Positions 11,201-59,600 of a stretch of 64,000 nt of DNA are shown piece by piece. This stretch comes from Yponomeuta sedellus (taxonomy: Eukaryota > Arthropoda > Insecta > Lepidoptera > Yponomeutidae), in the NCBI GenBank assembly GCA_934045075.1, contig OW203736.1:19108805-19172804 (forward strand), written 5' to 3'. The notes under the pieces were generated by a model. That model searched no databases and was not told where the DNA came from. It saw only the letters and a program-made list of their open reading frames with translations. The stretch's first letter is position 1; the number at the start of each line of letters is the position of its first letter. Both the position numbers and the translations under genes were made by a program.

Positions 11201-13864
11201 CTAAGGCGTTTTTTCCGTTGTGGTAGTTTCATCTTCTTGCGAAGCCGGGGTGGTGCTGTCAGACCTCGAGGAGAAGCCCTGGAATCCCGTGTTGCCGTGG
11301 ACAGTGACTGTGTGGAGAGGGTTACTGGTAACTTCTGCATCCGACACCGTCAACCCAGCATGTAGCACCGCCCCTTCTTGGTCGTAATGTGCGTCTGTTA
11401 TGTACACCGGAACACTGACCGGGTATGGTACTTGGACTTGAACCGGGACCTTTTTCTCCACAGGGTACGGTTTCGGCACGTACACCGCAACTTTCTTTTC
11501 GACCTCTACTCTCTGAGGAACGTACACTCTAAACGGGACGGGCACTTTTTTCTCCACTTCGACCGGGTAAGGGACTCTTTTCTCGACCGGGTAAGGCTGC
11601 GGCACTTTCACAGCGAACGGCTGAGGCACCGGCACTCTGATAGGAACGTGTTTCACGACCTCGTAGGGCTCCTTCACTTTGACCTCGACGGGGTAAGGCA
11701 CGCGCTTCTCAACGGGATAGGGCTGTGGGACGAGCACCTTCACCGGAACCGGCACTCTAACTTCCTTCTCCACCTCGTAAGGGACTGGCCTGTCGACCGG
11801 AACTTGGACCTCGACTGGATACGGAACCCTTTTCTCCACAGGGTAAGGCTGCGGCACCTTTACTTCGACGTGTTTGATCACAGGAACGTGGTGTATTATC
11901 GGGTACGGTTTCGGGACGTATTCCTTCTCGACGACCTTCACAGGGACTGGGTGCGGCACGGCCACCTGGATCGCGTAAGGGACCTTTTTCTCGACAGTGA
12001 CTGGGTAAGGCACTTTCTTCTCGACTTGCACTATCTTCTGAACGGGGTAGGGCACCGGTATTCTCTTCTCCACTGGAACTGGGTAAGGCTTGGGCACTTC
12101 CACTTTGACCGGCACTTGGACGGGCTTCTCGACGGTCTTGATGTACTTGTGGTGATGGTGGTGGTGGTGATGCTTGATCTTAGTGACGACGCGCGGTCGT
12201 CGGTGACTCGCCTCGGTCTGGAGGTCCTCCACCACGTAAGCGCCCGGCCGTTTTGTGCTGAAACCAGAATAGACATACGGATTCAGTTGTCGCCTCTTAC
12301 GGAAGAATATCATCTTTTTCCGTCCACTGACCGGTTGGGTTTGCACCTTGCTTACGGCAGGGTATCCGTACGTTTGCAGATAAACGTGGCGACGGCTGTC
12401 GGCTGCGGGCGCTGAGTCGGCCAGTTGGTAACTTTGGTAGCCGTTGGGTTGCTGAGATAAGCTGGTGACTTGGTAGTCTTGGTAGCCGTTGGGCTGCTGA
12501 GTTAGGTTAGTAACTTGGTAGTTCTTGTAGCGTTTGGGCTGCTGAGCTAGGCTGGCTATTTGGTAGTCTTGATAGCCGTTGGGTTGTTGAGTGAAGCTTG
12601 TGACTTGGTAATTTTTGAAGCGTCTGGGCTGTTGAGCTAGGCTAGTTACTTGGTATTCTTGGTAGCCGTTGTTCTGCTGAGCTAGGTCATTATCTTGGTC
12701 GTCTTGGTAGTCGTTAGGCTGCTGAGCTAGGTTGGTTTGGTAGTTTTGATACCTTTTGGGTTGGCGTTCTAAGTTGGCGACTTTATAGTTTTGGTACACA
12801 GAAGGGCGAACTAGATTCGTCCGTTGATAGTTTTGGTACCCGTCCGATCGTCGGGCCATCTTGGTCATTTGGAAGCTGTCAGATCGTGGGCTCATCTTTG
12901 GTGCAACGCGTTTTAGGTTGGGGTAGTGTGAAGGGATGATCGGTACCCAGTCGTTTGGTTCGATAATCAGGCTGAGTGGTTTAGGTGTGGTCGACTTGTG
13001 CTTGGGCAGTCGTGTCACTCTGCGGTAAACGCGAGTGGTCGCTTCAGTCGACGTCGTCGTCGTCGTCTGATTTCTGCTGACTACTCTCAATTTAAGCACA
13101 CTCGCCGAAACAGAGTTATCTATATAATCAGACTTTGTTGAATTAGTCAGTGTCGAGTTTGTTATTGTGTCGTTGGGTGAATTCTTTTTGTCAAGGATGT
13201 GTTTAGGCCATATTCTCTTGGTCCGCAACGGCCTCAGGGTAGTGGTTGTGGTCGTAGTAGTCGTTGTCTGATTGTGTGGTTGTTTCGGTGGTCGGACAAA
13301 GTCAGCTCGGATGCCGTTTACTGTCTGTACGGGGAGGCTGAACTTTGGACTTTTGGCTGTGACAACGTAGGGTTTACCGGTCGACGCAGCGTAAGCGAGC
13401 TGCGGTCGCTGCTGCCCCTGATGACTCTGATTCAGAGTATAATAAGGGCCTTTCTGGTTCATTGAGACCACTTTGGTGTATTTGTACGCCGCGTTTGGGG
13501 GTATACCTAACGGGATGGGTTTACCGTTAATGTAGGGCCGCGGCGGTCCTGGATTGTAAAAGATTCTTGGCACGCCTATCGTATACTTGACATGTTTGGG
13601 TTGCTTCTCTGGTTGTATAGGGGGTTTGGACGGCGGGCGAGGCTCTGGTTGCGTCTGTGGGTGCGGTTGCGGCGACGGAGCCTGAGTGCTCGATTGAGGT
13701 ACGTACTTGGGGCCATCTATGATGGTGACCGCTCGCGCTTTGTTGTGGGTCTCTTCCGCTATCTGGTCTACGTTAATGTCGGGGGCGTCGGCAGCAGCGC
13801 CATCTCCGCGACATATGGAGATCACTAAGCCAATGATCAGAAACGTCTGCGGACAAAAATACAT
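11201..13864 (-). CDS. Secreted low-complexity protein with PYPV and Tyr/Gln repeats
   Basis: A single open frame of 887 codons. The N-terminus [20 protein letters not shown] is a clear signal peptide, which fixes the start. Order: Pro-rich segment (55-90), poly-Thr (199-209), N-glycosylation-rich Thr/Asn region (230-275), about eight ~20-residue Tyr/Gln repeats of the type [15 protein letters not shown] (340-482), a basic patch [13 protein letters not shown] (514-526), His8 (565-572), then a long array of [11 protein letters not shown] / VPQPYPV units (575-835) and a Thr-rich end. Such Val-Pro-Tyr arrays occur in insect cuticle-associated and other matrix low-complexity proteins; Tyr and His could serve cross-linking or metal binding. 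A precise family is not recognised. A long antisense open frame (11378-12415) is a by-product of the repeats. Confidence 0.85.
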
Positions 13865-14254
13865 GTGGACGTTACGTTTTGAATGCTTAAGAACTCATCT
13901 CTTTCTAATTAGATTCGAAGTGAGTTATTATCATAGTTTATTTAGCAAGTTAGCTGTTATTAAACTAATTTGTACTCTTCGCGTTTCTCGGTTAAACGTT
14001 TATTAATATCAGTTTTTTTCAGCTTTCGTTATCATTACGTGCGTGCGGCGCCGCCTCTGAGCTCCGCTGTTGAATGAAAATGCGGAGTGCAATAAAGTGC
14101 ATGCACGCGAACTTGTCGAATAGATATGCTTCCCATATTATGTTTGCTGCTTTAAGCAGTGAAAATGGTGCGTTTTTGGAATACTTCCTGGGTTTTCTTA
14201 ACATGATGCATTATATTGCTGTAACGTTTGAATTAACCTTTCACAAAACACCAT

Positions 14255-17061: not shown

Positions 17062-20000
17062 TCACTGTATTTCAATAAGAATCTTCAGCCGGAATTTGTC
17101 GTCGGGGAACCGCATTTTGATGATCTGTCGGACCTCCTCGCACGTGTAGCACTTTCCAAGATCCTGGCCTCGATTCCACAGGCGTGAGAGCTCTAAGAGT
17201 TGGGCTTTCAGGAGTTGCGGCATCCTCACGAACTTAGTCCAAATGTCGATGGTCTTTTCGAAGTCAATCGGGGACTGAAAATGAGGACGGAAAAGCTTGA
17301 ATGTATTACCACACTTTGTGAATCTTGCATACGCCACGCACGCGACGCGGCATGGGAACTTTGGTCGTGCGTGTACACTAACGTGACCAGACGACCCGTT
17401 TTGAACGGGACTGTCCCTTTTTATAATTACGAGTCCCCCCCCGGTGTCCCCGAAATTAACTCCGGGACGCAAAATTGTCCCGTTTTCGAAAATGCTCTGT
17501 TTTAATTGAATATATTTTATGTTCGCCTGCTACAAAATGCTCTAATAGAAAGAGTATTTTCTATTCCTTTTTCTAATTAAGGACATCTGAAAAAACCCAG
17601 TTACAAATTCCAGTTCTAAAGGCGATGTTGATAATTAAGGTGAGTATAAAAAAAGTGCCATGAGTTTCACTCTTACTTAAAATCATCACTAGCAATATTA
17701 AAGCAAATTTGTTCCTCTGATAAGTATAAATATAATTAAAAATGTTGGTATAGTATTTAATTTGTAACTAAGCTATCCAACTTTTTCTTAATAAATAACT
17801 TTTAAAGTGTTTTGTTTTTCATTGACTACCTCTTATTTAATTGACTGAAATAAATGACTGTCCCGTTTTGAGTCAAAAAATAAATGGTCACGTTAGTGTA
17901 CACTTATCCTACTTAGGTGATTCCGTTCAACATCTGAAAATATGATGTCTGTTTTTGACATCCCTTTACCTCATATTAGTTAGTAAAATATTTTTTTAGT
18001 TCGGAATTACTTAATTTTTTGTCGGAAGAGTCCGCTCTTATTCAAAGTGCTTCATGGCTCTTTCTGGCTCAGTCGGGTAAAAACAGCTTAAAGGCAATAC
18101 CAAAAATCCGGCAACATCCTAACAGTCATGGACGTAGCTAGCTTGGAAAGATAGGAAAGGGGCTACTCCGAATAAAATTTCTAAACAAAAAAATAGCTTT
18201 ACGAAAATTCACAGCACACCACATCCAATCAAATTCATGAAATCTCACCTCAAACAATTCCAAGATCTCCTGCACCACGTCCTCCAGTCTCACAGCAATC
18301 ATATAGACGAGGTCCTCCTCCACGGGCTTCCCGCAAGCCAAAATCCTCTGTAAAATTGCCTGGCATAGGGCCTGAATCAGCATGCAGAGACTGAGCTCGT
18401 ACATGCGCGAGGGAAGGACAGCGTGCCAGTTTTGTTTTAGGTCCTTCATGAGAGTTAGGGCGTCGTTGATGGAGCCGTCGAACTGGTCGAAGGTTTGGTG
18501 TGTCCAGGGAGAGAGTTCTGAGAAGAACAGAAAATATATTGCATATAGTCTGCTTCTGGCATACCCCCAGCTCGCACATTTTTAATGATAGGAAGATAAT
18601 TTTGAAATGGATGTGGTTTAGAGCGTCTGTAGATAATAAAGTCGAGGATCTTTTTTTGGTCGAGTCCGTAGATTTTAGTTTGCAAAAACAATACCTACTC
18701 ACTATTTTACAATTCTTAAAAATAGGCCAAGTGCTCGTTGGGCCACGCACATTGTAGGGTTCCGTAACTTTTTTTTTTTCTTATCTATATAGATCTGCAA
18801 TCAGTCCTCGGACTATGATCAGATTTGTTGTCTGTATCTGTTTTGTCGAGCGTGTTCTCCACTGAGAGCATCTCCTCATATTTAAGCTGCTGTCAATATC
18901 TGCAGTCTAGATCTTGTATGCTGTATCGCTTTAGCCTTCTCTGGTAATCCAATGATATTAGTTGTTGCGCCAGTATATTTGGATGGCACATCAAACGGCT
19001 CTTGTACTTTTCTGCTGTAATTCGGATCTCCTCTTTTACAGTGTTTATTCCAAGTTGTTCGTGTATTTCTTTATTGGTTATGTACCATGGTACATTCGCA
19101 ATGTCTCGCAAGATTTTGTTTTGTAGGCGTTGCAATGTATTGATGTGGGACTCGCTCGCACTGCCCCACAGTTCTATACCATACATCCAGGTTGGTTTCA
19201 GTGCAACTTTATAGAGGAGAAGTTTGTTTTTTTTTTTTTTTGCGAAATTCACGATTGACAGACGTGAATTTCGTCCTAGCATCCAATATAATTTTTTATA
19301 TTTTATGCATAGCTCATCCCTTTTTGCTTTGATGTGATTTTTCCAGGTTAGACGTCGATCAAGGTGTAGGCCAAAATACCTCACGTGCTCACTATGCGGT
19401 AGTGTATTGTCACCAAGTTTTACAGGCGGGCAATCGCCACGTTTGAGAGTGAAGGAGGTTCCGTAACTGGGCATCAAAATAAGAAGGAAATGTCCTTGAT
19501 TCGACGACCTCGGTGGCGCAGCGGTTTGGCACGCTGACTGTAAAACCAAAGGTCTCTGGTTCGATCCCCGGCCGGGTCTAACTAGGAAATGAACTTTTCT
19601 AGTTTGTCTCGGGTCTTGGATGTTATCTATGTATTATTGTATTAAATTTATCTTCGAGTTAGCACCTACAACACAAGTCATTTAGTTGTACTTAGTATAG
19701 GGCTAACGAGATCTGTGTAATATGTCCATGAATATTTATTATTTATTTATTCATAATAGAATATCATATTACATCTTCACACAAGTGACAACTGCATGAA
19801 AGTAATTTTCAATGCATTTTTAACAAAGTTTTCTTTTTAGAAGGTTGACTGTTGATCGACTGGTTGGTTAACTTGTGAAGCCTGCGTAGCTGTTATAGCT
19901 AGTTTTCCTTTTAACTTCGTTATATGTGCTACAGCTGTTTCTGCTTTTAACTGTTTCTACAATCAACTGTTTATCCTGAAGAGAGGGGCGAGGGCGCCTT

Positions 20001-23000
20001 ACTAATAATACTAACAAAAAATACCAAAAAATATAGTATATATATGTCAATTTACAGCAGTCTAGTACTAAGCGTCTCTGAGCGGACTGATAAACAGACA
20101 GGTAGTCGGACGGATATATCCGCGCCATATCCATAAAGTTATCTACGCCATATCATATATTGTAATAAAAGTAAACAAAAAATCCTTATAGTTTCGCCAT
20201 GATCCGGATACGGCGAAACTATAAAGGGTCCTCGTTGACTACAGAACCCTAAAAATAGTATTGAAAAGCGGTCGCGTTTGTAGTGGCGTTAATTTACTGC
20301 CGGAGTATTTGTATGGACGTATTCAAACCAATGCACACTGGTTCCACGCCCTAAGAGTAGCGGTCATAGGGTTTCGCGATAATAATGACTGTCGTTGTCA
20401 TAGCTGATTATTATTATTATGGTGTTTTGTAATACTTTAAGCCATAACACAATAAAAAAAAAACAAAATAATCTTAAAAAGCTTATTTTATTTACAAAAT
20501 TATGCATTTTTATTACACTTAAAAGAAGGTTTGCAACTTAATAACTATTAAACCTTACTATTTACATTTTATATTACAAATAAAGTAAATACTTAACTAA
20601 CATCTAAGTACAAACACACAATTGGACAAAAAATATTATATTTACATAATAGGAGTTATGTAAAAAATAACATAAATACCTATCTTATTTTTTACATTTT
20701 TTCCTAAACCGACAACAAATTTAATACTTCTTTTGATAGAATAGACTTCTTCTTCTGTGGTAACCTTCTTAAACTAGAAATATAAGGATCCGAATTAAGG
20801 AGAAGTCTATGTATCAAGTCGGTGTTTGTGACAACCCGAGACATTTTCCTCGTGTTGTCACGCCTGAAGAGTTTGATTAATTTATTGCAAGATTCGGCGG
20901 CCTCTTCCGAAAGCTCACCTATTGACAATAATGCGTGTTCAATTACTTCCGACCCATGAATGAGGACCTTATGTACAGACGATGGCAAGTTGTACCATGG
21001 ATAGGTAGCAACAAGTTTACGTGCTGTTTCTAGAGAATACTCTTTAAAAGTGGCGTTATTAATTTTGTATCCCGACGAAAGACACTGCAGCAGATTATGA
21101 CATCTGTCAATAAGGATTTTATCTAATCCAGTAATTTCCGCTGAAACCGCTGAGTTAGAAAAAAACTTTCTGGCAGTGTTTCCGTCGTTAGATGTGCCAC
21201 TTCCTCCACTTCGCGGTTTGTCGACTATTAGACCAAGTTTCTGCCTAAACTGTTGCTGCACATGTTGTTTTTTTTGTGCAAGAAGAGCTTTTTCGTCTGA
21301 AGAACGTACCTGCCATTTCTTTATGTCTAATCTATAAGAAACGTGAATTAAATATTCGAAGAATCGGATATACGAGTGAAGAGGAGATAGTCCAAATTGA
21401 TAGGTACCACTATCTGCAGTTTTGCTCAGCGATTTATCAATGTCATTCATCTCTTTTGGAGTTGAACCACAAATATAACATCTACTACAAGATGTATCGC
21501 TCAGAGCACTGCACACTTTACCATCAACCATGGTTAATTGTAAAGAATGCTGCACTTTTATTTCATATTCACCGTGAGTGAAAGAAGTCGGTTGTAAACT
21601 ATCAATTTTAGTCTTGAAATAAGCTTCTTCTTGCACAGAAAGGTCTTTGGATTCTTTGGCAAATTGGAATCGAATAGGCCTACAATACCTGGTGGAAGAA
21701 GGGCGCGGATTTTTCCAAACTATTTGATCTGGGTCGGAGGTATTGGACTTACAAACCAATTGAAGAGGACAATATGAAGTAACAAACATACTGCCATCAT
21801 CATCGATACCAGAATCTCCAAAAATCTGTTTATATTCGCTGTGCCCCGTACTCCCATCGAAACCCCATTTTCCAATCAAAACAAATTCTTTATTAGGGTC
21901 AATATTATTCAAAACGGGTTTTTGGGATTCTAGTATCCGGCAAGCAGTATGATCTAACAATGATTGTAATTCTACTTCAGCAGATGATTCCGTGATAAAC
22001 TCTTGCGATGGATAGCACCGCTTCTTAGCTTCTAACACTTTTTGATAAGATGGTAATGCATTAGGTGATTTTGCATTAACGAAGTCTTTCACCAAAAGAT
22101 ACTGATGTTTAGTCAGTTTTGTCTCATTTATAAGAGACAAGACTTCGTCAGTGCTGAAATTTAAAGATGCAGCGGCGTTAGATAGACTAGAATCGTCCAA
22201 CAAAGAATTTATCGCAGAACTGTCTACTTTACTTAACTCTGCAAGCCTGCGGCGTTTTGATCTCTTGCTACATTCCTCAAAGTCCTTCCTGTGCTGGTGC
22301 TGTTGGGTGCTTGTCGAAGCTTCTGCTGCTGGCCGTTGGGTGTTGTGGCTCCCTACTGTTGCACAAGTTGGCAGAACGCAAACTTCAATTTCGTTCAGCC
22401 AGTCTCCGTACTTAGAGACCATGCGAGAATGGTTGCGCGTGACTTGCTTCCAAATTGCTACCAATCTTGTACAAACTTTAGTAACTCTTTTTTCCAAGTC
22501 ATCAGCAATGTAATTCTCAACATCAGGCAGCAATTGTATTAGGTCTCGAAAAACTCGATGCCAACGCTCCAGTTCAGATTTGCTGTCTTTAATAGACAGC
22601 CAAGTATCTAGTACAAGCATTCTTTTGAAAGAACACTTAATACTAGTACCTAAAACAAAATAAAAATACGTTAAAAGCGGATCAAAATAGATACATGTTT
22701 CGTAGCAAGTGCTACGCGCCTGCTACGCGTTCAGGCGCGCGGCGTAGCACCTGGCTGCACCTTACAGACGCAGCATGACGCAGCTAAATTTGGAGAGGCC
22801 TAGTAGTAGACATTGTAACCCATATTTCTATACCAAATTGAATGGTACAAGTAGGTACAAACATAAGTAAAAGCTTCAACGTAAAAAATATACAGACATA
22901 AATACATAAAAAATGCCACGTTGGCGTAGCACTCTATTTAAAAAAAAAATGTAGAAGGAAAAGGCAAAATAGTAAAGTAAATTAATAATACATACCTGTG

Positions 23001-26000
23001 ACTTCAAATTCCATTGTAAAATAGCAGGTCACAGACAAGTTGGAACTTAAACACACGCGTCGCGTCTTGGGCTAATTAAAGCACTTGGTGATAACAGGTT
23101 GATGACTAATTACTTGTGTTCACTTCGGATGCCGAAAAAGGAATGTTGGGAACAATAGATTGCGAAACCTTTTATACCCTCAGGTAGTATGACAATTAGT
23201 GGGTAACTGAGCCAGATATCATGGCTTAGCTCAGTCATTGCCATCCGAGTCCTATGACCTACTACGGTACCACCGTGCAATGCGTTCTGTCCGCGATTAA
23301 TTGATTGATCGCTTTTTACTGCTGGGTTCGCGGTGTGAACACCTCAGACACACAGGTTTCTTCACAATGTTTTCCTTCACAATTGGCAAGTGGTAGCGAG
23401 TGAAAGTAAGTAAAGTATATGAGTAAGTATATGAAAAATACTGACCCTCAGGGTGCACATTCTTCATGATGATATTCTTCTGGTTCTGCAGGTACAGTGA
23501 TATCTTCTCCAAGCCTAAGACTCGCAGGTCTTGAATGCTCTCCACAATGACTGTGGTCAGGTGTTGCGCTGTGCGGGACGGTAGGATGGACTTCCATGGC
23601 GGACCGAGCAGGCCATGGGCCAGGTAGAAGCAGTTGTTGAAAAAAAGAGCTGGAAAGTTTTTTTAAGATACTTGATCATGTTTGATATTAGAAAAACCTT
23701 CAAAAGAACCTCTGATTTGGTGACACTAAGTGCAATATCTCAAAGGAGAAAGTAAAATGGACAACATATAAAGATGATGGTAATTTAAAAAAATAGGACA
23801 AGTGTACCGAGGGTTCCGTACTTTGTAGGTATTAACATATTATAAATAGTTTAGGAATCGATTGTCGCAGTTTTTTCGGAGCTTTTTCCCGAACTTCAAA
23901 GAATAAGATTTAACTACAAATGTACAGTTTTCACATTTTTTCCTGTATTTTTAGCATTACACGATAACGTATGTCAAATTCCATAGTTCTAGGTCAATGG
24001 GAAGTGAATTTTGTCTCCCTTGAGTGTCGAAAATTTCTGCGGCATAAAAGGCCGTAATTTTTTGCGTTAAATTAGAAGTTTTTTTTTTTTTTTTCAGAAC
24101 TTAAAGATACTGTGGCCCTGAGTATATGGAATTTCAGCGCCATACCTCCACGCGTTTCTAAGAAAATGGGTATTGACAGACAGATGGACAACAAATTCAT
24201 CCTATAAGGGTTCTGTTCTTTTTTCTTTTGAGGTATGGAACCCTAAAAAGGATTTAGAATAAATAAATTTTATTATTTATACAAACATCTTACATAAGAA
24301 AAAACTACTACAAAAGTACAGTTGTAGTAGTTTTCAGCAAAACATATTCCTCTTAATTATATTCTTTTTGATGCACTAACCCGTGTTAATGAATACAAGT
24401 AAAGTCTGTAATACAGAGAGTATTGTAAAGAGGTTCTAAATTTCACCAATGCCGGCGGTACTTGCCCATTGGCTCAGTTGGGAGATCGCTGGCACGTTTA
24501 GCCAGAGGTCGCGGGTTTGAGTCCTGGCATGGGTGCATGCCAGGACTCAAACATGAATTTTTGGCCTTTAAATAGGTTTTTAAAAATATTTACCTATATC
24601 CAAAGGACAACATTCCAAGTTGACTTTAAACTTTTTGGGAACAATGCACTGGTACATAACAGCAACGCTTCTTATGTAGGATATTAACTTCTTACTATAT
24701 TCTTCAGGCAATTTGGCACTCTCTTCTAAATGCTCAACTATTGTTGTTAAAATTCTCTTCACATTTTGAGAAATTACACACCTTGGTAGAAATAGTGGCT
24801 TGGTGAGGTCCCACATAGCTTCATTGTCTGTGACATCCAGTATCGAGTCATTTTCATTGCTAGCTCTGTACCCAACAGTAATAGTGCCATATGACAGGCT
24901 TTCATTGAGTAGATCTCGGACTTCGGAAAGTAATTTGTCACACTTCTTGTTGTACAAAACAACTTCAGTGTCTTTAACAAACTTGTTCAAGGGCGACTCT
25001 TCGGGGTCAACAAACTTCATCTCAATAAGAAATTTGTTGAATGAATCCAGTTCTATGACCAAATTCTTGTAATGCTGATAACTGCTGTCACATGAAGGTA
25101 GGTTATTTCTAATGCAGTCTTCTATTATTTTGTTAAAGAATTTTCCTCTGATGGAGTCTGCAAAAACTTTGATGAATGTTTTTTCTCCATCAAACCGGGT
25201 TCCCAAAGTTGTTTGAATAAAGTCAAATACTGCCATTAGATTGTTGAAAACCGTTTGGGATGAAGGTTTGGAGGCATCTTGCATATTTATCTTGATGTTG
25301 AATACAATTGTATGATTTGGGGCTATGGTATCATCAGTGAAAATATCACAGTTATGTTTTATTACACTGCTCAAAAGTTTCTCAATGAAAAAATGTGAGA
25401 ACTTGCCTAGTTCAAGATTCAGCCGATCTGTTGCATGTAAAGCTTTCAGAACATTCTGTATCAATGTTGGATCACTTTGCTGAACAGATAGAGAATATGT
25501 CAAGTGGGATAATCCTTTTTTCTCAGACCAGCTAAAAATATCCTCCCATTCAAGGCTCAGATTTGCAGAATAGATGCTGTATTGATTCTCGGCTTGAGAA
25601 ATTACGTTAAAAATTGCTTTAGAGATCTTAGGATCGAATGTAAGGCTTTTCAAACGGTTTTGAAGCTCTGAAAGAGATACCATGGCCTCTGTGTAGTTGT
25701 ATCGGAGAAATTCATGATTAGCCTTCTCCAACTCTCTCTTGGCTTCGACAGCCACACAAAGACCTTTTAAAACATCAACATCATCAACCAGTTTCTTCGA
25801 TATTTTTTTTATTTCACTATCGTCTACTTGCCACTTGTCCTTAAGCAATTTCAAATCGTCTGTGGCCCTTTCGTACTCACTTAAGATTTTTTCCTTTCTG
25901 TTTCTATAATTCAGCTGCTCAAGACTCCGTGTAGGTATGAAATTCACATAAAGATCGATTAGGTTTTCTTGCAAGGACCACGATAACATTTGAACTTTTT

Positions 26001-26103
26001 CGGTAAGTTCCTTTACCTTGGATATTAGATCATCTCGATGCTTTGTCACCTCCTCCGTGCTCGCCTTGTCCGCTTCTTGAAGCACAGCACTCAACAAGCT
26101 CAT
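17062..26103 (-). CDS. Zw10: Centromere/kinetochore protein ZW10
   Basis: Four coding exons on the - strand: 24594-26103, 23446-23649, 18249-18517, 17062-17274. They join in phase (breaks after codon base 1, 1 and 0) to give 731 aa; fly and human proteins are about 720-780. The N-terminal half is predicted coiled coil (VKELTEKVQMLSWSLQENL). Landmarks match ZW10: LSLEWEDIFSW, FNKFLIEMKFVD, LPRCVISQNVKRI, FFNNCFYLAHGLL, and a C-terminus ending in CEEVRQIIKMRFPDDKFR. ZW10 is a subunit of the Rod-Zw10-Zwilch complex that recruits dynein and Mad1-Mad2 to kinetochores, and also acts in Golgi-ER tethering. The first exon is unusually long. A SINE tail ends about 10 bp from its donor. Intron 2 (4.9 kb) contains a complete nested gene and LINE/SINE insertions. 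Confidence 0.93.
17371..17903. repeat. Inverted-repeat element in ZW10 intron 3
   Basis: Left end 'gtgtacactaacgtgacca' and right end 'tggtcacgttagtgtacac' are complements; just inside, 'ttgaacgggactgtccc' pairs loosely with 'gactgtcccgttttgag'. The element is about 533 bp, lies about 100 bp from ZW10 exon 4, and has no transposase. It is a non-autonomous DNA element. Confidence 0.65.
18893..19496 (-). pseudogene. Jockey-type LINE reverse-transcriptase C-terminus
   Basis: The - strand frame encodes HSEHVRYFGLHLDRRLTWKNHI...YGIELWGSASESHIN, then LQNKILRDIANVPWY and ITAEKYKSRLMCHPN, which is the characteristic end of jockey-family reverse transcriptases. The catalytic domain is absent. The frame is cut at about 19497 by a SINE. 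It is an old 5'-truncated insertion in ZW10 intron 2. Confidence 0.82.
19504..19750 (+). mobile_element. tRNA-derived SINE (family D)
   Basis: The head 'cctcggtggcgcagcggttt' (A box) and 'tctggttcgatccccggc' (B box) resemble a tRNA. The body contains 'tttgtctcgggtcttggatg', 'attgtattaaatttatcttc' and 'atatgtccatgaatatttat', with an AT-rich tail. The form is typical of lepidopteran SINEs. It interrupts the jockey fragment, so it is younger. Confidence 0.8.
20509..20514 (-). terminator. Probable polyadenylation signal of the nested RAG1-like gene
   Basis: AATAAA on the - strand, about 190 bp after the stop codon, with further AATAAA-like motifs nearby at about 20486-20491. Confidence 0.45.
20704..23014 (-). 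CDS. RAG1/Transib-like transposase-core protein nested in ZW10 intron 2
   Basis: Two exons, 22996-23014 (MEFEVTG begins the protein, good ATG context) and 20704-22649, donor 'acag|gtatgt', acceptor 'ttttgttttag', give 654 aa. An internal Met (22620) is downstream in the same frame. Landmarks in order: NLS-like KRSKRRR (135-141); KWGFDGSTGHSEYKQ with D271; YCRPIRF...AKES; LTMVDGKV with D382; CYIC with C397/C400; HKVLIH with H566/H571; LSEEAAESCNK with E592. These line up with mouse RAG1 D600, D708, C727/C730, H937/H942 and E962: D-D spacing 111 versus 108, D-to-Cys 18 versus 19, HxxxxH identical, second His to Glu 21 versus 20. All three acidic residues are kept. I recall related 'uncharacterized' proteins in other arthropods. 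Either an intron-bearing Transib-like transposon or a domesticated gene. No terminal inverted repeats were found. Confidence 0.75.
23168..23176 (-). promoter_or_regulatory. TATA box of the nested RAG1-like gene
   Basis: 'tataaaagg' on the - strand, about 155 bp upstream of the first ATG. A start site about 30 bp downstream would give a 5' UTR of roughly 125 bp. It suggests the nested gene has its own promoter inside ZW10 intron 2. Confidence 0.5.
23790..24252. repeat. 'ggttccgta ... gaaccctaaaaa' interspersed element
   Basis: Starts 'accgagggttccgtactttg' and ends 'aggtatggaaccctaaaaag', so the outermost parts are partial inverted repeats ('gggttccgta' / 'atggaaccct'). It contains 'tattgacagacagatggaca'. 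This is a single well-preserved copy in ZW10 intron 1. Confidence 0.55.
24365..24583 (+). mobile_element. tRNA-headed repeat (family A) abutting the ZW10 exon-1 donor
   Basis: 'gatgcactaacccgtgtt', the leader 'tattgtaaagaggttct', head 'cccattggctcagttgggag' and B-box-like 'gggtttgagtcctggcat', then the tail 'ggcctttaaataggttttta'. A short inverted scrap ('catgccaggactcaaacatg') follows the head. The tail ends about 10 bp before the gt donor at 24592-24593. Confidence 0.7.
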
Positions 26104-26372
26104 TTTTGTGTATTACAGTAGATCAGATTTCTTTTGTTTTGATTAAATTATCTATCGAAAAACGGCAACCGATTTAGATTCAAAACTTGACTCGACTTGA
26201 CAATTGAATGACATCTGTCAACATTTCAAAGATGGTGGTCGTTTCCGGCTGCGTTCGGATATTGAATATTGGTATCCCATCCGTTCCGTCTAACGTTGGT
26301 CTAACGTGTATGTAACAATTTTTTCACTATTATTATAAGCTGCAAATAAAATCTACCAAAAATATTGTTCGT

Positions 26373-47600: not shown

Positions 47601-50600
47601 GCCAGTCGCGTGGCAGGCGATGCGGGCTTTGCCGTTCAGCTGTGGACAAAATAAGGGGGCTAAAGATTCCTTGTTTCTTTCGTTTACAGTTTTATGATCT
47701 ATAGAATCTCAGTCGAATAAGAAGAAGAAGTTTTATGTCATTCCTTCTCCTCTTCTGTCTTCTTACAATATTGAAGTCTAGGCTTTACGGAGAAAATGCA
47801 TAGATAAAAAGGCGTCACTGGTCATGTGGCAGCACCATCTCTTGAACAGCGCCACCCGGTGACAGACGCTGGAACTTCACACGTCCTCAACATTCGTTGC
47901 CACAACTATAGATTGTTTTGACACCGGGTATATAAGGCGCAGGGGTCGTACAGGAGCCAATGATCAGGAAATGTTATTATATTCTTTTTTTATGCACTAA
48001 CCCGTGCTAAGGACAATTTTAAAAAACTATTTAAAGGCTAAAAATTCCACCCATGCCGGGATTCGAACCCGCGACCTCTGGCTCTCCGTGCCAGGCGCTC
48101 TTTCCAACTGAGCTAATGGGCGATTCACCGGCATCAGTGAAATTTCGAATCTCTTTACAATATTCTTTGTATTACGTTCGAAATTTCACTGATGCCGGTG
48201 AGTCGCCCATTAGCTCAGTTGGAAAGAGCGCTGGCACTGATAGCCAGAGGTCGCGGGTTCGAATCCCGGCATGGGTGGAATTTTTAGCCTCTAAATAGGA
48301 AATGTTATGCCAATAAAACTTAAGCTAAGCGAAGAATAGGGCCAAAACTATGCTCTCTTCCTTTTCGTCTCAGCCGGAGCGTCACACGTGAGACATAGGT
48401 ACTTGGCCCATGTTCACCTAAGACCTTTAAACGACAAGAAACTCACCAACACCTCCACAGTTCCCACAACCGTGCTCCCTTCACTCCCATCATAAGCCAC
48501 GACTTCCGTAACTTTGGGCGGCGTAACCACAGTCACTTTGTACACCAGGTGTGCAGTACCAGCTTTATTTTGAGCGTCGCACCGGAACAGACTTTGGGAC
48601 TCGAGGGAAGCGTTGTATACGTGGAGTGAGTCTGATTCTTGATGCCAGTTTGTGTTGCTGTGAAAGAAGGTAGACTGGGCATGGTAACTTAGTAATGATG
48701 TTGCTGCAAAGTAGTCTCTATTACTTATATTCTTTTTTTTAATGCACTAACCCGTGCTAAGGACAATTTTAAAAACCTATTTAGAGGCTAACAATTCCAC
48801 CCATGCCGGCATTCAAACCCGCGACCTCTGGCTATCCGTGCCAGCGCCCTTCCAACTGAGCTAATGGGCGACTCACCGACATTATTGAAATTTCGAACCT
48901 CTTTACCTAACTGGTGTAAAACCTAACTGCAAAGTAGGTACTCGGGACTTCAAGTAATGAAAGTTACTAGAGCCAGACGTCGCTGCAGATTGTTGTAAAG
49001 AGGTTCGAAATTCACTGATGCCGGTGAGTCGCCCATTAGCTCAGTTGGAAGAGCGCTAGCACGGATAGCCAGAGGTCGTGGCTTCGAATCCCGGCATGGG
49101 TGGAATATTTAGCCTCTAAATAGGTTTTAAGAAAGTATTCTCTAGCTCAATTATTTTCGTTGAGACGTGCAATTGGGCAGGCTACATAGAATTTGCGACT
49201 TACTTGTGTATCCAGGTAATGGCAGGAGTGGGCGATCCAGTAGCTTTGCAGTCTAGAGTAGCGTTAGACCCTTCATACAATTGGACCTCAAGGAAGTCGA
49301 AATGTGATATGAATGGCGGCACTGAAAACAAATATTTCCGACTGTGATCTGGAATACGTCCTTTCTCATTTTTTTGGACAAAACACTTAGGTATGCCTTT
49401 ATTTTAAATGATGAAAAAATGAATAGTCTTTATTATATGTACATCAGGTCTTTATTGTATTACATAAGATATAATGAGCTAAGATATATCACAGTCGAAT
49501 TGCTTGTTTAAACATGCGGCATCTGTTATTACTAACCCCAAACGTCCAAAGTAAACTGTCTCACTAAAGTGCCATGTGTATTGCTTACGATACACTTGTA
49601 CTGGCCAATCTGGTGTAGTTGTATGTCTACCAACCTCAAATAAGGTTTATCTTGACCAGCAATAGGTTGGGTGTTGAACAGCCATTTCGTCTGAAAGAGT
49701 TTTTCATGTTTAGTCATTTTATTAATAAAACCAAATTAGTGTATTTTTGTTACTTTTATCTTATAATCGAACCCATTATGGTAATCAACGCTATCAACCC
49801 TTGTATATTAGCACTGCTGGGGCACGGGTCTCTTCCTGCATCGCAGGAATGTTAGGCCATACTCCACCACGGGGGCCAAGTCCGGGTTGGTGGAGGATTG
49901 TAAGACAGTGGCGGACCCTACAGTCAGAAGTTATCAAGCCACCCACAAAGCCTCTGACATGGCTTAACGACTGCCGTTACATGACAGTCGGCACCAACGG
50001 CTTAGCGTGCCTTGCGAAGCACGGAAGCGCTTGGAAAAATGCCACTAGCGGTAATCACCGGTAGGTTATTGTAATCAAATTTTAATCCTAAAAAACTTCA
50101 TATTATTTTAAAAACCTATTTCGAGGCTAAAAATTCTACCCATATCGGGACTCGAACCCGCGACCTCTGGTTAACCGTGTCCGCGCTCTCCCAACTGAAC
50201 TAATGGACAACTTAGTTGTGATTTTTTTTCATAATATGCTAGATTATTTAGACATGAAGCAAGATTAATGACATTAAATCACCGACATTAGAATATCCCT
50301 TCGAGTCGAATAAAATTAGATTAATCCTTCGAGCCGTATCAATAATCTATATTCATCTACCAAACAGGAGGTCCCGGGTTTGAATCCCGGCTGGGGACAA
50401 AAAAACCCCAGGTCTTGGATGTTTACATGTTTGTGATGTCGCTGTATTTGGTTCCCACGACACAGGGTATCCTAGTGTGGGGCCAGAAGCAATGTATGTG
50501 CCAGTATGTAAAATGTTATGTTACGTTAAACATTGGTGTAAAGTAAAATCTTACCTTTAGGTACACTCTGTATTATACCGTTGATGCTAGACCTAACCTA

Positions 50601-56600: not shown

Positions 56601-59600
56601 TGTAAACAAACCATTTATAGAATCGGTACAAATGCGGAAAGAAATAATTCCTATAAAGTGGTTTCTTCCTTCTAGATCATTCATTTAATTAAAAAATATA
56701 ATTTTGTTTAACTACGCCTAACACGTGCAAAGTATTTAAAAGAGAACTTTGCGGGTGTCGTTGATTACATTAAATCAGCATTAATAGAGAACAAACGCAA
56801 CACAAAGAATATTCACTTCTAAGTAATTAAAGTACTGTAGCATTAGTTCCTCTACCCAACCACAGATGGCGCTGTTTGTGTTCTAAATTGCGGTATGGTT
56901 TTGTCCGAAGGTCCTACATAATATTAAACAAAATTGGATAGTATTTGAGCGCTTGCGAATCACTTCACCAATACTGACTGTCCACTAATAATTGGCACGA
57001 CTAGTGACGTAGGTAATATACCTCGCTTTGCGCTGTGGTGCGAGTAGTACAGTTACTAATCCGTAATCCTTAGTAAGTTTCATATTGCTTCAATAAATAG
57101 ATCCCTAAGTACGTGCTGTCGTGCTGAAACAACGTTTCTCTTCTTGTCTGCTGAAACCCTGTGAAACCCTGTCCTACAGTACCACTTTTAGCCACTAGAT
57201 GGCGCTGGCATATATTTATTCTAGTACATGTATAAATTTACATAATATCAGCTTTGCTCTACATGTAAACAAACCGTCTATAGAAACGGTATAAGTGCTG
57301 AAAGAAATAATGCCTATAAAGTGTTTATTTCTTTCAACGCCATTCGTTTATCTCATTAATTTAAGAAATCTCAACCTCATAGGGGGTAATAATAATAATA
57401 CATTACTGCAGAGGCCGAGAAGTAAGGGATTGCTGGACGAGTTTGGGATAGACGGCCGAGTCGTAGCCGAAGCCATCTAGAACGAGTCCTGCAATCCCTG
57501 TTCCGGCTGAGGATTGTATAATGCTTTTCTCAAACAATGCGAAGAAATATTAATATTAAAATAATTACTAGGTAATTAAGAAATAATAGTTTAGTTTGCC
57601 GCCTTTTTTATTTTTTTAAATACACTAACATATTTGAGCACCATGTTTAACCGCACAAAAACCAATACCATAGATTGTTTTTTTTGTTAATCTAAGTATG
57701 CTTACATAATTTTTTTAAATACACTAACATATTTGAGCACCATGTTTAACCGCACAAAAACCAATACCATAGATTGTTTTTTTTGTTAATCTAAGTATGC
57801 TTACATAACTTAGTAGAAGGTTGGCTGTATGTAATTTTTCCTTGGTCAGTTTAATTTTAGTAAGTAAATTTAAAAAGTTAGAGCAGCGGACGGTAATGGA
57901 TTTTCATACTTACTTTACTGGCTTAGGCCAGTTCATTTGTGAGACCAAAGATTGCTTATCTACACCTAAATATTCAGTAAAATTTTTCAATGCTTTAGGG
58001 GGCCACCTAAAGATGAATTTGTTATAGTTTCATTTTAATACCGGTAATATTTTGGCATTCAGAAAACCAAGATTTTGTATGTCTCCACGCCCATGCCACA
58101 ACTCTAAATAACTACGCCAGGCCGAAGGCCGAGCCCCATCATGCGGGTGCGAGGAAACTTGCCGCGACGAGGTTGAAGGCCGAGCTCAATACAGGTCGCG
58201 GCACGGCCGAAGGCTGTGAAGCGGGCTAGAGGAATACTCCCACGGCGATTCCAAATGCTGAGCTCTATTTAAGCTGATGCCAAATGGAGAGACTATTAGC
58301 GCGGCCGAAGGCCGCGACAGTTACTTAAAGTTGCTGTTAGGAGGAAACCTGTCGCGCCTTTGTACAGGCCGCGGCTGAAGGCTCAGACCATTTATGTTCC
58401 CATTTAAAAGTCCTTATTCTAAGTAATTAGCGAGACCGAAGACTGGGCCCAGCAATGCAAGCACGAAGAATTCTACTCTGGAGATGTCGAAAGCTGAGCG
58501 CCGTTCAGGTCGAAGAGATAATTCGTGACTATTCCAGTCCCCACCTACAATCGTTAACATTAAATAACTAGGTGCAGTGGAGCGTTTTTAGGCTACATAA
58601 AAAACAGACAATTTATGTAAGGATAATAAAGAAAAAAATCTGTCGTTTCCTTTGCAAATATTCTAGATAGTTTAACACCATTAGACCATATTCATTATAC
58701 TAGCTAAAAAATATCGTACGATATAAATTTTTAATGCAGGCAGGTGGTACCTATGACTATATCAAACAAGTATATCAGTAAAAATATGATTTGCCGAGAC
58801 ATGTCCATTGTCGAACAAAAGAAAATAAAGCAATAAACTAAAATTCATTTAGGACATAAAATAATATAACGATTTAATGCATGTAACAGAACAGATGGAC
58901 CTTTAAATTTTATCGTTTTACTGAGTCACTAAAAGGTCAAAAATAAAAAAAATATTTAAAAAAATAAAAGAACCCGACTGCAGTGATAAATCAACTGAAA
59001 GGGAAAAAATAAGATAACTTTATTTTCAAATGCTAATGTCGATTCAGAAGAGTTCATGCTGCTTTACTTGAGGGACCAAATAATATAACTTTATAAGCAT
59101 TATTTGCTCAAACTGTTGCATTTATTATTTTATATAAAATGATGCAGTCGGGACCCATTACTGTTTGTTTAAAGTCCTCTAATGGGTCCCGACTGCATCA
59201 TTTTATATAAAATAATAAATGCAACAGTTTGAGCAAATAATGCTTATAAAGTTATATTATTTGGTCCCTCAAGTAAAGCAGCATGAACTCTTCTGAATCG
59301 ACATTAGCATTTGAAAATAAAGTTATCTTATTTTTTCCCTTTCAGTTGATTTATCACTACAGTCGGGTTCTTTTATTTTTTTAAATATTTTTTTTATTTA
59401 ATGCATTAACCCGTGCTAAGGATAATTTTAAGAAACTATTTACGTACGTAATACAGAGAGTATTGTAAAGAGGTTCGAAATTTCACAGATGTCGATAGTC
59501 GCCCATTAGCTCAGTTGGGAGAGCGCTGGCACGGATAGCCAGAGGTCGCGGATTCGAGAGAAGATATGGGTGGAATTTTTAGCCTCTAAATAGGTTTTTT

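Follow-up and report, generated by a model that had tools for sequence, protein, structure and literature searches.

What is the RAG1-like gene that lies within the host gene ZW10 of the moth Yponomeuta sedellus? The gene is located on the minus strand of a 64,000-nucleotide stretch of contig OW203736.1, which is called the window below. A reading of the letters alone (the sequence-only reading) had placed it in the RAG1/Transib superfamily with a complete catalytic triad, as either a live transposon or a domesticated gene. Transibs are known relatives of the V(D)J recombinase, which rearranges antibody genes. The superfamily identity and the triad are supported by sequence, alignment and predicted fold, and we consider it highly probable that the locus is an autonomous cut-and-paste DNA transposon of the Transib superfamily, complete in structure and inserted in an intron of a lepidopteran ZW10 gene. 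The word live should be taken as intact-looking only, since present mobility can only be inferred.

Transposase gene and family membership

The gene at 20704-23014 consists of two exons, encodes 654 amino acids and has no internal stop. Its parts and putative signals are as follows.

22996..23014, minus strand: transposase exon 1 (19 nt; MEFEVT and the first base of codon 7; splice junction inferred)
22650..22995, minus strand: transposase intron (346 nt, GT...AG)
20704..22649, minus strand: transposase exon 2, including the stop codon
23171..23176, minus strand: TATAAA, putative core promoter within the element (consensus match only; position 102 from the element end)
20509..20514, minus strand: AATAAA, putative polyadenylation signal downstream of the stop (consensus match only)
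22366..22647, minus strand: N-terminal domain, residues 8-101 (strand-4 helices-strand; separate AlphaFold model, pLDDT 91.3)
22234..22299, minus strand: basic motif HQHRKDFEECSKRSKRRRLAEL, where other Transibs have their GRP-bearing motif

The two-exon, 654-residue gene on the ZW10 strand, with its own TATA box and AATAAA, is thus as the sequence-only reading had described it, in both coordinates and signals. A second AATAAA, likewise a consensus match only, starts at 20492 downstream of the stop.

In a phmmer comparison, the transposase matches HzTransib of Helicoverpa zea with 399 bits (E 3.3e-118), a value that excludes a chance match to Transib. The scores are 27 bits for amphioxus RAG1L (E about 1e-5) and 14-17 bits for RAG1 chains (E about 0.01-0.1), and because of this difference the assignment to Transib rather than to RAG1 is supported at the level of sequence. 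At least 544 homologues were found at E≤0.001, and the named relatives are spread across insect orders. When the exon-2 protein was scanned against Pfam, the RAG1 family was the sole match, below its cut-off, and no RING or other N-terminal finger was detected.

The positions of the active-site residues should be noted. All seven residues of the DDE triad and the CCHH zinc site (D271, D382 and E592; C397, C400, H566 and H571) are present in the translation where they had been predicted, and each pairs with an identical residue of HzTransib; D271, E592, H566 and H571 also pair with identical residues of amphioxus RAG1L. In the alignment of relatives, six of these positions are kept in 58/58 rows and the D382 position in 54/58. 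Asn replaces the second catalytic Asp in relatives P0033, P0034, P0041 and P0051, which retain the other six; these may be inactive copies or non-catalytic derivatives. One of the residue spacings proposed earlier needs correction, though the positions themselves stand. The distance from D382 to C397 is 15 residues (18 to C400), and the spacing given as 18 against 19 in RAG1 had set the second Cys here against the first Cys of RAG1. In RAG1, D708 and C727 are 19 residues apart.

Alignments of the predicted fold to the HzTransib structures (PDB 6pqn and 6pqx) show 39-43% identity, over 487-492 columns in one set of alignments and 433-472 residues in another, and the predicted fold is that of HzTransib. 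The checks of fold and catalytic residues proposed with the sequence-only reading have returned a structural match to HzTransib and identical HzTransib residues opposite D271, D382 and E592. Taken together, sequence, alignment and predicted fold confirm a Transib superfamily transposase with a predicted RNase H-like DDE triad and CCHH zinc site. The fold is also shared with RAG1 and the amphioxus RAG1L (ProtoRAG), whereas sequence similarity to these proteins is weak and no RAG2 partner lies between the element ends described below. The finding is less remarkable than it first looked, since insect homologues are common and a crystal structure exists for a lepidopteran one (6pqn). By itself, finding a Transib within an insect intron is ordinary, and the present one is a fine specimen of a familiar kind.

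Residues upstream of the internal methionine are kept in P0004, P0022, P0024 and P0029, which carry a similar (K/E/Q)C(S/I/V)F.R stretch, and because of this conservation we infer that exon 1 is spliced to exon 2. Other listed relatives start at or after the internal methionine. In the models, the junction is directly followed by residues that form one strand of the N-terminal domain. No convincing match to the model of this domain was found in the PDB. In the phmmer alignment, the deposited HzTransib chain of 497 residues has its residue 3 opposite residue 159 of exon 2, so about 160 N-terminal residues are without counterpart in that chain. The basic motif starts with GRP in 47/58 rows, with HQH in the 654-residue protein and P0002, and with HQY in P0001. 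Passages of PMC9435367 report that both Transib subgroups have an equivalent of the nonamer-binding domain with GRP, so the region is already known, and the loss of GRP, common to two close relatives, is a detail.

Element ends and their spacing

The ends of the putative element and its target-site duplication, both of which are additions to the earlier account, are listed below.

20334..23277, minus strand: whole putative Transib element, 2,944 bp (bounded by CAC and GTG and flanked on either side by a perfect 5-bp duplication; encloses the transposase gene)
20329..20333, no strand: target-site duplication CAATG, low-coordinate copy (5/5 match)
23278..23282, no strand: target-site duplication CAATG, high-coordinate copy (5/5 match)
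20334..20391, plus strand: end 3' of the gene (heptamer CACACTG and, beyond a 23-bp spacer, TCATAGGGT, followed by more sequence that aligns to the other end)
23232..23277, minus strand: end 5' of the gene (heptamer CACGGTG and, beyond a 13-bp spacer, TCATAGGAC, followed by more alignable sequence)

Every CAC with its start in 18601-20703 was paired with every GTG with its end in 23014-24599, and the resulting 504 pairs were scored. Only one of them, 20334-23277, is flanked by a perfect 5-bp duplication (CAATG), and the same pair has the highest summed score. The terminal bases of its two ends match at 9/12 positions (CACACTGGTTCC / CACGGTGGTACC), and among 19,951 CAC/GTG pairs drawn at random from the window there was not one that combined a terminal match of at least 9/12 with a perfect duplication. 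Inward of the heptamers, the ends share a gapped stretch of 36 columns with 27 identities, a score reached by 2/3,000 dinucleotide shuffles. The gene and its putative signals fit inside these ends, with 370 and 263 bp left outside the gene. This single copy thus has the inverted termini starting with CAC and the 5-bp target-site duplication of a Transib. Owing to the terminal match, the random-pair control, the shared inner stretch and the top summed score, the ends are credible, and we regard them and the duplication as well supported by the sequence of this one copy.

The spacing of the ends should also be noted. With the heptamers in register, 23 bp separate the heptamer from the shared block TCATAGG at the end 3' of the gene, against 13 bp at the 5' one, giving a probable unequal 23/13 spacing in this copy. 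The block is not A-rich, and no A-rich nonamer was found at either end. Asymmetry of this kind is already a known trait of Transibs, since PMC8355894 describes, in the passages considered, spacers of 12 or 23 bp (±1) in Drosophila Transib5 and four Anopheles Transibs, and PMC9435367 places, in a passage on Subgroup II, both asymmetric and symmetric ends in this subgroup, which holds most previously known Transibs. The element would resemble Drosophila melanogaster Transib5 and Anopheles gambiae Transib2/N1/N2/N3, whose heptamer is followed at 12 or 23 bp ±1 by an inner element (PMC8355894, in part), a likeness of description rather than of end sequences; the inner block here is TCATAGG, which is not A-rich. 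HzTransib shares with it the Transib core, the 5-bp target-site duplication, the lepidopteran host and, according to a passage of PMC1852546, an insertion beside a host gene, in the promoter region of CYP6B8. However, HzTransib is 3,518 bp long (same source) against 2,944 bp here, and its ends are described as long, whereas the present ends are short and imperfect with unequal inner spacing.

A more ambitious reading is doubtful, though worth stating: an intact, possibly active Transib that would combine 12/23-like ends (heptamer-13 and heptamer-23 to TCATAGG) without RAG2, an N-terminal domain of unrecognised fold, and a nonamer-binding-like region with HQH instead of the usual GRP. Should transposition require the 13/23 pair, a test of the 12/23 rule in a RAG2-free transposase would become possible. 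A genome usually contains few autonomous Transib copies, and these are often damaged, as a passage of PMC4411706 has it; an intact-looking Transib whose N-terminus is long, whose ends are visible and whose end spacing is unequal is for this reason a useful candidate for activity assays.

Transposon, host gene or inactive copy

By analogy with what is known of HzTransib and RAG, the gene would yield the 654-residue DDE transposase, a dimer of which would bind the two RSS-like ends. A nick at CAC followed by a hairpin on the flanking DNA might then release the 2,944-bp element, to be inserted through a 5-bp staggered cut. Several observations weigh against a transposon with these ends. The ends depend on a single copy and a single 5-bp duplication, and were located by a search that presupposed CAC...GTG. 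One 5/5 duplication in 504 pairs is about what chance gives by itself (504/1024), the inner-end score alone is reached by 58/19,951 random CAC/GTG pairs, and no second copy occurs elsewhere in the 64-kb window. The last point, together with the intact frame and the gene's own putative promoter and intron, would suit a Transib-derived gene domesticated by the host and kept by selection within ZW10. Yet recognisable ends with a perfect 5-bp duplication are unexpected after long domestication, the full catalytic set is retained, and the named relatives are dispersed over insect orders, as in a mobile family. Low copy number does not help this explanation either; autonomous Transibs are typically present in one or a few copies (PMC4411706, in the passage mentioned), so that a low number, if found, would fit a transposon as well. 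Domestication is hence very improbable, given the ends and the full active site, and of the two branches left by the sequence-only reading the transposon is favoured by its ends and 5-bp duplication.

A full-length copy that is already inactive, through broken ends or regulation or an unused splice, overlaps with the transposon reading, which covers active and inactive copies alike, and deserves more weight than domestication while still being the less likely state. The ends agree at only 9/12 terminal bases with unequal inner spacing, and Transib copies are often damaged by mutation, according to the authors' response to a reviewer in PMC4411706, seen in part. On the other hand, 654 codons run without stop or frameshift, seven of seven active-site and zinc residues are retained, and unequal end spacing is described for some Transibs in passages of PMC8355894 and PMC9435367. 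A RAG1-like (RAGL) element proper, with a RAG1L gene whose RAG2L partner is lost or distant, is hardly conceivable: by pairwise scores the transposase is far nearer to HzTransib (399 bits) than to RAG1L (27) or RAG1 (14-17), and the 370 + 263 bp outside the gene leave no room for RAG2L.

Host gene and the rest of the window

The exons around the transposon were assigned to ZW10 as follows.

24583..26112, minus strand: ZW10 first large exon (Pfam Zw10_middle 3e-25, also ZW10_C; lepidopteran homologues)
23450..23662, minus strand: ZW10 second exon, approximate limits (Pfam ZW10_C 7.5e-6, rest of the domain)
18141..18581, minus strand: ZW10 next exon, approximate limits (Pfam ZW10_C2 6.3e-7)

The transposon lies between the second and the next identified exons, on the same strand as ZW10. 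The placement in ZW10 intron 2 therefore holds for the second intron among the exons identified, and the flanking exons are ZW10 by Pfam. The 510-residue first large exon gave 58 protein matches at E≤0.001 (7,992 candidates scored), each with ZW10 domains. The nearest match overall, a metagenome-type record, has 76% identity and the nearest named one, from Plutella xylostella, 68%; the named matches are presumably all from Lepidoptera. Intron insertion has a precedent in the superfamily, since a passage of PMC4411706 describes a RAG1L-RAG2L locus inside an intron of a sea urchin gene.

The same ZW10 intron contains a 246-residue open frame (18893-19633, minus strand) that resembles, by eye, the C-terminal end of a non-LTR retrotransposon polyprotein and has no Pfam match. 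A tRNA-SINE-like stretch, also recognised by eye, follows this frame near 19500-19600.

Elsewhere in the window, a stop-free frame on the minus strand (12401-13852) would encode a proline-rich protein, with tandem repeats of 45/90/135 bp at 12434-12751. The strong skews of 12001-14000 (GC 0.214, AT -0.298) are probably due to this frame. At 57610-57808, a 99-bp unit occurs in two head-to-tail copies with 100% matching, either because it was duplicated very recently or as an artefact of assembly. Three tRNA-Ser genes (GGA, TGA and GGA) are predicted on both strands within 830 bp at 48046-48871 by ARAGORN in its bacterial setting.
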